From NCBI GenBank assembly GCA_944364075.1, contig CALVVZ010000011.1, forward strand, positions 1-32,512: DNA of 32,512 nucleotides, written 5' to 3'. Below, piece by piece: positions 3,291 to 32,512 of this stretch. The position numbers were made by a program, and so were the translations under genes. Source of the DNA: an uncultured Clostridia bacterium. Lineage in GTDB: Bacteria; Bacillota; Clostridia; Christensenellales; Aristaeellaceae. The notes beneath the pieces are model-generated. The model saw nothing but the letters and a program-made list of their open reading frames with translations, did not search any database and was not told the origin of the DNA. Positions within the stretch are counted from its first letter, which is position 1. Each line of letters begins with the position of its first letter.

Positions 3291-3321
3291 AGATCCGCTA
3301 TCCAAAGGATAGCGGATCTTT
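3291..3321 (+). terminator. terminator hairpin, left copy (interrupted T-run)
   Basis: AGATCCGCTATCC and GGATAGCGGATCT form a perfect 13-bp stem with an AAA loop. Only three Ts follow before the type-1 element begins with CAGACTG at 3322. The full T-run (TTTTTT) is found after the third copy of this hairpin at 3791-3796, so this copy looks like the left part of the original terminator, separated from its T-run by insertions. Confidence 0.8.
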
Positions 3322-3543
3322 CAGACTGTTGAAAAAGGCATATTTTTTTCATGGAACCGCAAGAAAAAATGAAGCTTCAGGTTCCCAAACTTGCAAGTAT
3401 TTCATAGCGTATGAGGACCGAAGGTTTCCAAAGGGCGATCGGGAAGCCCTTTGGTCGCGCCCGCAGGCGCGAAACCTTTTGTATCTGCAAGAATGCATAC
3501 AAAACTTGCAAAAAGAATGATAAAATATTTTGTCAACGCGCTG
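3322..3543 (+). mobile_element. type-1 structured repeat element, copy A1
   Basis: This non-coding 222-bp element has imperfect terminal inverted repeats (CAGACTGTTGA... and ...GTCAACGCGCTG). A second, inverted copy lies at 23662-23882; by eye the core (3390-3515) is about nine-tenths identical. The core can fold as a three-way junction: outer stem AGGTT/AACCT (3422-3426 with 3473-3477), arm CCAAAGGGC/GCCCTTTGG (3428-3436 with 3446-3454) and arm TCGCGCC/GGCGCGA (3455-3461 with 3466-3472). It is flanked by copies of the same terminator hairpin (3289-3315 and 3544-3570, one mismatch in 27 bp), as expected for a target duplication. No plausible protein is encoded. Confidence 0.75.
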
Positions 3544-3549
3544 GGAAAT

Positions 3550-3570
3550 CCGCTATCCAAAGGATAGCGG
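3550..3570. repeat. terminator hairpin, middle copy between two elements
   Basis: CCGCTATCC/GGATAGCGG with an AAA loop, identical to the hairpin cores at 3295-3315 and 3767-3787. This copy lacks a T-run; the type-2 element starts at the very next base. It is best read as the duplicated target shared by both insertions. Confidence 0.85.
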
Positions 3571-3766
3571 CAGGCTGTCAAAAAACCCCGGGGAGGCGTC
3601 GGAGGGGCCGAAGCCCCTTCGACTTTCATTCGTATCCGCCGGCTCTGCCGGCGGGGCGGGTTGTTGATTTTGCTTGCAAAATCAATTCCTTACAACTTCG
3701 GACGACCTCTGGTTGGCCGAAGTTGCTTTCTCAAAAAAGTGGCGGCGCCACTTTTTTGACACGCTG
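3571..3766 (+). mobile_element. type-2 structured repeat element, copy A2
   Basis: This 196-bp non-coding element begins CAGGCTGTCAAAAAA and ends TTTTTTGACACGCTG, giving 15-bp terminal inverted repeats (13 of 15 match). It is bracketed by perfect 21-bp direct repeats of the local terminator hairpin. It folds into five hairpins: 3598-3623, 3636-3654, 3664-3685, 3693-3725 (9-bp stem with a 15-nt loop containing CGACCTCTGGTTG) and 3731-3759 (13-bp stem). The inverted copy at 27377-27573 has compensatory changes in the fourth and fifth stems. A third copy begins at 32439. No ribosome site or credible reading frame was found. Confidence 0.8.
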
Positions 3767-3796
3767 CCGCTATCCAAAGGATAGCGGATCTTTTTT
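3767..3796 (+). terminator. terminator hairpin, right copy with intact T-run
   Basis: CCGCTATCC/GGATAGCGG with an AAA loop, followed by ATC and six Ts. Joined to the left flank at 3289-3294 it recreates a normal intrinsic terminator for the upstream peptidoglycan-binding protein gene. Transcripts reading through the first copy would carry both elements as a 3' tail and stop here. Confidence 0.8.
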
Positions 3797-23477: not shown

Positions 23478-23661
23478 TGCGTGCAACCTCCTCGAAATCA
23501 GCGTTGTCATCATACCACATTGGCCGGAAAAAGACAAGCCCTCCCAGGAAATTTGTCGTCAAAAGCACGACTTCGCCCGAGTTTTATCCGCTAAACATCC
23601 CCACGGCATCTATGAGACCAGGCATGTATGTATACAGCGTGATGTATGCAGACAGAAAGTT

Positions 23662-23882
23662 CAGGCTGTTGGCAAAGTATTTTGCCTTATCATTTTTGCA
23701 AGTTTTGTATGTATTCTTGCAGATGCAAAAAGTTTCGCGCCTGCGGACGCGACCAAAGGGCTTTCCGATCGCCCTTTGGAAACCTTCGGGCCCATATGCT
23801 ATGAAAATCTTGCAAGTTCAGATATCTGAAGTTACATTTTCCTTGCATCTGTATGAAAAAGCATGATTTTTTCAGCAGTCTG
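23662..23882 (-). mobile_element. type-1 structured repeat element, copy B (inverted)
   Basis: This 221-bp element is the reverse-complement relative of 3322-3543. On the minus strand it starts CAGACTGCTGAAAAA and ends CTTTGCCAACAGCCTG. The three-way-junction core is kept: CCAAAGGGC/GCCCTTTGG is unchanged, while the other arm and the outer stem each change by a single base to G-U pairs (TCGCGTC/GGCGCGA; AGGTT/AACTT). Unlike copy A1 it lies between divergent genes (secG and the VTC gene), and no terminator hairpin is duplicated beside it. At most a few similar bases flank it. Apart from this element I see no gene in 23478-24023. Confidence 0.7.
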
Positions 23883-27347: not shown

Positions 27348-27376
27348 TATCCGGCCAGGAAATTCCTGACCGGATC
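27348..27376. repeat. 29-bp terminator hairpin, left copy
   Basis: TATCCGG...CCGGATC with arms ATCCGGCCAGGAA/TTCCTGACCGGAT is a hairpin repeated without a mismatch at 27574-27602. The type-2 element starts at the next base. The 128 bp before it (27220-27347), after the beta-helix gene, shows no other feature. Confidence 0.88.
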
Positions 27377-27573
27377 CAGGCTGTCGAAGAAGTGGCTTAC
27401 GCCACTTCTTCGAGGCAGCAAATTCGGTCAACCAGAGGTCGCCCGAATTTGTAAGGAATTGATTTTGCAAGCAAAATCAACAACCCGCCCCGCCGGCAAA
27501 GCCGTCGGATACGAATGAAAGTCAGAGGGGCTGCGGCCCCTCCGACACCTCCCAGGGGTTTTTCGACAGTCTG
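27377..27573 (-). mobile_element. type-2 structured repeat element, copy C (inverted)
   Basis: This 197-bp element is the inverted relative of 3571-3766. Its ends (CAGGCTGTCGAAGAA and TTTTTCGACAGTCTG) are inverted repeats matching at 13 of 15 positions. It is flanked by perfect 29-bp direct repeats of the local hairpin. Relative to copy A2, the long-loop stem has changed from CAACTTCGG/CCGAAGTTG to CAAATTCGG/CCGAATTTG (27419-27427, 27443-27451), and the end stem from TCAAAAAAGTGGC to TCGAAGAAGTGGC with matching changes opposite (27384-27413). The TTGATTTTGC/GCAAAATCAA hairpin and the loop CGACCTCTGGTTG are unchanged. Confidence 0.82.
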
Positions 27574-27602
27574 TATCCGGCCAGGAAATTCCTGACCGGA
27601 TC
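27574..27602. terminator. 29-bp hairpin, right copy with T-rich tail
   Basis: Identical to 27348-27376. On the plus strand it is followed by ATCTTTTTATTTTT, making an intrinsic terminator for the beta-helix gene. It is also the first structure met by minus-strand transcripts after the DUF1653 gene. Confidence 0.82.
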
Positions 27603-32438: not shown

Positions 32439-32512
32439 CAGGCGGTCAAAAAACTTCCCAAGAGGGGTCGGAGGGGGCGCAGGCTCGCTGACTTTCATTC
32501 GTATCCGACGGC
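32439..32512 (+). mobile_element. type-2 structured repeat element, copy D (cut by window end)
   Basis: The first 74 bp match the left end of the type-2 elements at 3571 and (inverted) 27573: CAGGCGGTCAAAAAAC, then GTCGGAGGGG, then CTTTCATTCGTATCCGACGGC. The first hairpin is more degenerate than in the other copies but keeps most pairs. The remaining 120 bp or so lie outside the window. Confidence 0.8.

Follow-up and report, generated by a model that had tools for sequence, protein, structure and literature searches.

We found that positions 3571-3766 of the window, as we call the whole 32,512-nucleotide stretch of DNA from an uncultured Clostridia bacterium that was analysed, hold a non-autonomous miniature transposable element (MITE). 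This element, termed type-2, is bounded by terminal inverted repeats and lies between two copies of a duplicated hairpin, and its interior shows covariation across a family of relatives and a wobble asymmetry on the sense strand. The best reading of these data, which we put at a probability of roughly 0.6, is that of a MITE mobilised by a transposase of the IS1182 family and carrying a conserved structured RNA.

The first copy (196 bp, plus strand) is accompanied in the window by an inverted copy of 197 bp at 27377-27573 (minus strand), with which it shares about 90% identity, and by a third copy at 32439-32512 (plus strand), which is cut by the contig end and adjoins a terminator-like hairpin. 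The own genome (G000) is 85% complete, with 3.1 Mb in 271 contigs, and searching it gave at least 66 matches, of which about 40 are type-2 copies or large pieces of them; these counts are lower bounds, as 40 of 238 candidates were scored. Four copies are identical over all 196 bases, many others show 82-99% identity, and there are 121 occurrences of the end pattern CAGRCTGTYRAAAAA in this genome, compared with 0 of the reversed control. The identical copies and the 121 end patterns make recent activity of the element likely. Many contigs of the genome break about 60-77 bases inside a type-2 element. The size of 196-197 bp, the lack of a transposase gene, the CAG...CTG terminal inverted repeats, the target-site duplications and the dispersed copies are all those of a MITE. 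IS200/IS605-like and REP/RAYT elements make no target duplication and have no DDE-type inverted repeats, and such an assignment was ruled out by the inverted repeats and the long duplications. The phage and plasmid records that were searched contained nothing matching the element of the window, and no description of it was found in the literature outside subscription journals.

Hairpins, most of them terminators, are the insertion sites of the element, and the entire hairpin is duplicated in the process. The left terminal inverted repeat of copy 1 (CAGGCTGTCAAAAAA, 3571-3585, plus strand) was assigned from the sequence and the end-pattern count, and the right one (3752-3766), which reads CAGCGTGTCAAAAAA on the minus strand, from the sequence. 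Directly outside these repeats, the complete hairpin CCGCTATCCAAAGGATAGCGG is present as a target-site duplication at 3550-3570 on the left and at 3767-3787 on the right, where the T-run still follows. Copy 2 is likewise enclosed by a hairpin duplication of 29 bp, at 27348-27376 and 27574-27602. In a survey of 119 places, comprising 118 elements and one intact insertion sequence, duplications of 14-43 bp were present at 54 (raw count), none was found by the survey criteria at 60, and 5 places lay at contig edges. The duplicated segments were hairpins, folding at -5 kcal/mol or lower, in 49 of the 54 cases, compared with 39% of segments drawn at random from these loci, and their median fold was -16.4 kcal/mol compared with -3.9 kcal/mol for the random segments. 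A T- or A-run adjoins the duplicated hairpin in 36 of 48 cases. The orientation of the element relative to the terminators is unbiased, with 11 sense, 13 antisense, 12 both and 12 neither (n=48).

The same terminator has received a second kind of insertion. A third copy of hairpin CCGCTATCCAAAGGATAGCGG at 3295-3315 marks the insertion of a type-1 repeat (3322-3543), which also occurs at about 23660-23880 of the window. The ends of the type-1 repeat (CAGACTGTTGAAAAA / TTTTGTCAACGCGCTG) are similar to those of type-2, and it probably depends on the same kind of transposase for its movement. We also noted that the right terminal repeat, at 3752-3766 as well as at other right ends, reads TTGACA in the outward direction, a possible -35 box of outward promoters.

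The type-2 element has ends (CAGRCTGTCRAAAAA) similar to those of intact insertion sequences of the IS1182 family in relatives. Intact elements with similar ends were found at the loci L085 (CAGCCTGTCAAAAAAG), L181 (AGCCTGTCAAAAAAG) and L183 (CAGACCGTTGACAAAG), all in other genera, and these are flanked by hairpin duplications of 25, 21 and 31 bp, respectively; at the other seven of ten complete or near-complete transposase loci, exact matching detected no such duplication. An IS1182 transposase model matched in 5 of 12 element-carrying genomes and the L085 transposase, used as query, in 16 of 120 genomes of the family, and the own genome holds only fragments of IS1182 elements. Judged from these sequences, type-2 elements would be moved in trans by an IS1182-family transposase. 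The type-2 interior (hairpins 1-4, about 140 nt) found no match in 30 of 31 IS1182 loci, and the only locus that did match, L193, is a degenerate place in the own genome; we therefore rejected the idea that the interior is part of an autonomous insertion sequence. At this place on contig C8, also recorded as L088, a degenerate type-2 element lies directly 5' of a fused or truncated IS1182-like transposase frame.

In its ends, in the DDE transposase (here found in relatives) and in the sequence-independent targeting of terminator hairpins, the element is like the IS1182 family with IS1272 and TnSha1, as far as these are described in the accessible text of PMC4923244 and PMC5678879. According to this text, IS1272 and TnSha1 target terminator hairpins and delete them. 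The type-2 element has no gene, and IS1272 removes or replaces the stem-loop without duplication, whereas the type-2 element duplicates it as a whole. In the accessible part of PMC5678879, whole-stem-loop duplication by IS1182-type elements appears only as the hypothetical pathway b, and the duplications described here provide natural evidence for it.

An earlier note on this DNA had claimed that the element folds into five hairpins with compensatory changes between copies 1 and 2, and RNA folding of each copy bore this out. The two copies fold at -98.6 and -98.9 kcal/mol (z -7.0 and -7.4), and none of 200 dinucleotide shuffles was as good. Between them, a C-G pair in the long-loop stem (hairpin 4) is changed to A-T, and two A-T pairs in the end stem (hairpin 5) are changed to G-C, in each case on both sides. 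The 15-nt loop core that had been called constant is indeed the same in copies 1 and 2, but CGACCTCTGGTTG measures 13 nt, varies in other copies of the own genome, and gives way to an internal loop around GGCC in the majority of other genera.

RNAalifold places a proposed closing stem of a multibranch core, P1, between a GGGAGG-like 5' strand at 3591-3596 and its partner at 3726-3731 (both plus strand, as are hairpins 1-4 and the spacer), and 77-93% of the cells per stretch are paired. Within it follow hairpin 1 (3598-3623; 97.3% of cells paired), hairpin 2 (3628-3661), whose apex CCGGCTCTGCCGG is CGACATGYGCG-like in many relatives, and hairpin 3 (3663-3686; 95.4% paired). An unpaired spacer of the TTCCTTACA motif (3687-3692) leads to hairpin 4 (3693-3725), which consists of two helices with 98.6% and 95.4% of cells paired. 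Hairpin 5 (3733-3757), with an A-run, a stem and a T-run, overlaps the right terminal repeat and looks like a bidirectional intrinsic terminator. Conservation of unpaired parts is seen in the loop of hairpin 1, which is mostly CGCA in relatives, in the spacer, whose positions are 79-85% conserved over 73 elements, and, by eye, in the GGCC internal loop of hairpin 4. The consensus of nineteen own copies contains 72 pairs, seven of them with changes on both sides, and divergent relatives that were folded singly mostly gave the same row of hairpins, with z below -3 for 51 of 52 representatives. By eye, GAAC and GTGA runs stand opposed in hairpin 4 of L059, L063, L071 and others and could form tandem G-A pairs.

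Covariation was assessed with an R-scape-like test, using a G-test with average-product correction and nulls simulated on a FastTree tree (E<0.05). When 78 elements were aligned to the model, 30 column pairs were significant and 29 of these belong to the predicted structure, which has 68 testable pairs; they comprise 4, 4, 7, 7 and 6 pairs in hairpins 1 to 5, one in the terminal repeats and none in P1. In this alignment, which was fitted to the structure model and so leans towards structure, 92.8% of the cells are paired, compared with 68.5% when shuffled and 38-50% when slid, and for 69 of the 72 modelled pairs, changes on both sides are found at some point in the set. A sequence-only alignment of 97 elements (without L153, L165, L168, L172, L174-L176 and L178-L180) gave six pairs, three of which are true pairs of hairpin 2, and did not recover the other hairpins. 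When the same test was applied to the 30 own-genome copies alone, no pair reached significance (best E 0.62), and copies 1 and 2 by themselves therefore prove little; the significance comes from the family-wide set. Since covariation across many copies is present, the proposal that selection acts on structure is supported. Overall, these data suggest that the element functions through a folded RNA and not through a protein.

An RNA fold tolerates G-U but not A-C on its sense strand, and double-stranded DNA treats the two alike. G-U exceeds A-C by 246 to 36 in hairpins 1-4 and by 107 to 6 in P1. The corresponding counts are 13 to 12 for hairpin 5 and 26 to 21 for the terminal repeats, together 39 to 33. 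The model of the alignment used for all these counts already held some G-U pairs, and the related elements are not independent, so that the numbers are inflated by ancestry. When folding was repeated with G-U forbidden, small internal loops of the sense strand still showed 43 G-T compared with 27 A-C mismatches, and folding of each element singly under this rule gave 76 purine-purine compared with 17 pyrimidine-pyrimidine mismatches. Folding is strong on the minus strand, too (mean z -6.2, compared with -7.0 for the plus strand), the plus strand being the more stable in 38 of 52 cases. Because G-U far exceeds A-C in hairpins 1-4 and not in hairpin 5 or the terminal repeats, the interior behaves as one folded strand, most likely RNA, and the ends behave as duplex DNA. 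In one small element, a portion evolving as double-stranded DNA is thereby set apart from another that evolves as a folded single strand.

The earlier note had left the choice between RNA and single-stranded DNA during movement. The fold might act in transposition or replication, with the hairpins of the exposed sense strand being recognised by the transposase or by host factors. The same type of transposase targets hairpin DNA, both at the loci analysed here and according to the accessible text of PMC4923244 and PMC5678879, and an asymmetry of the sense strand fits one DNA strand as well as it fits RNA. However, intact IS1182 elements move without hairpins 1-4, and the ends, where the transposase acts, lack the strand asymmetry. 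Moreover, local GC skew revealed no clear replication-strand bias (18 leading, 12 lagging, 12 ambiguous; n=42). We regard the single-stranded DNA explanation as possible but unlikely and favour RNA, since only hairpins 1-4 and P1 show the wobble asymmetry and no orientation bias towards replication or terminators was found.

The paired changes could also have a mutational origin, in which template switching copies one arm onto the other and recombination swaps whole hairpins. Several paired changes among the own copies occur without intermediates, and a hairpin-2 variant of the own-genome loci L017, L020, L022, L025 and L030 is shared with L055-L057 of another genus, which suggests that hairpin blocks may have been recombined or transferred between elements. 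With such an origin, the palindromes should be perfect and neither strand preferred, but G-U is retained in hairpins 1-4 and A-C is not; the conserved unpaired parts, i.e. the CGCA loop, the spacer and the GGCC internal loop, would not be expected either. We therefore consider it improbable that mutation without selection produced the covarying pairs.

For the favoured reading, a MITE with a structured RNA, we propose the following working model. On the level of DNA, a transposase of the IS1182 family would recognise the terminal repeats in trans and insert the element at the base of a hairpin, in most cases a terminator, and repair would then duplicate the entire hairpin. On the level of RNA, the insertion would part the left hairpin copy from its T-run; as the element lies between this copy and the original T-run, a co-oriented gene on the 5' side should be read into it, giving hairpins 1-4 on the sense strand and ending at hairpin 5. 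Transcription from the other side would meet hairpin 5 first, and, with hairpin 5 as a two-way terminator, hairpins 1-4 would arise from sense read-through alone. The resulting sense RNA would fold as P1 with four hairpins, and selection would keep that fold. Both the read-through and the role of the RNA are inferred from sequence. Our guess for this role is a protein- or RNA-binding 3'-UTR or small RNA that makes insertions tolerable or aids persistence. The orientation of the 30 own copies relative to 5' genes is unbiased (15 same, 9 opposite, 6 with none nearby); as 15 of them lie 3' of a co-oriented gene, many copies, though not all, could plausibly give a sense transcript.

A bolder and quite tentative proposal, to which we give less than an even chance, is a novel class of mobile non-coding RNA. 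It would be a transposon passenger whose sole cargo is a conserved multi-hairpin RNA (an aptamer, protein-binding or catalytic), installed via terminators as a structured 3' end behind host genes, with selection on DNA at the ends and on RNA in the interior. If the RNA does have a function, a structured RNA is being placed behind many host genes by a selfish element, and one could then test what benefit an RNA brings to a transposon that has no genes.

Among known systems, the bacterial MITEs BOX, RUP and SPRITE of pneumococcus and QMITE2 of Coxiella are alike in being short, gene-less and bounded by repeats, with transcripts that are predicted to fold. The accessible text of PMC10969869 and PMC3049150 describes predicted folds for them, whereas the type-2 element has a complex multi-hairpin interior that is conserved by covariation in dozens of genera; the string "covari" is absent from the text of PMC3049150. 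IStrons, which combine a group I intron with an insertion sequence, also represent a structured RNA travelling with DNA transposon ends, according to the accessible part of PMC4227781, but the type-2 element has no intron, no transposase gene and no sign of splicing. With Rfam families it shares a covariance-supported structured RNA; the window matched none of them at gathering score, and relaxed thresholds gave weak matches far below the gathering scores.

The element is common enough to study, as more than half of the genomes sampled from one family carry it. A covariance model built from the own copies matched in 110 of 200 genomes of the same family and in 34 of 50 genera (E 0.01 or lower). 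In this search 12 candidates per genome were scored, and the resulting set A5, from which L033 was left out as it fell below the E cut, thus holds one to few places per genome. At E 1e-4 or lower, a second model gave matches across the order in 24 of 297 genomes, including 14 from five other families, and a class-wide search gave matches in 3 of 291 genomes, namely the own genome and two weak matches. This distribution bears on the idea of an ordinary MITE whose folding is a by-product, the hairpins being terminator remnants captured by nested insertions. Hairpin 5 and the ends of the insertion sequences look alike, and 3 of 30 own copies carry another element within their hairpin 5, but the order and spacing of the five hairpins are constant in many genera and their pairs covary, so that we consider this explanation very improbable. 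The nested insertions are of type-1 into hairpin 5 of type-2, with duplication of hairpin 5, at L018, L026 and L028 in the own genome and also at L045:1-420, and mobile elements are thus landing in each other's terminators. Relatives of the type-2 element were also present in five contigs of Clostridia metagenome assemblies from the gut of water deer and sheep.
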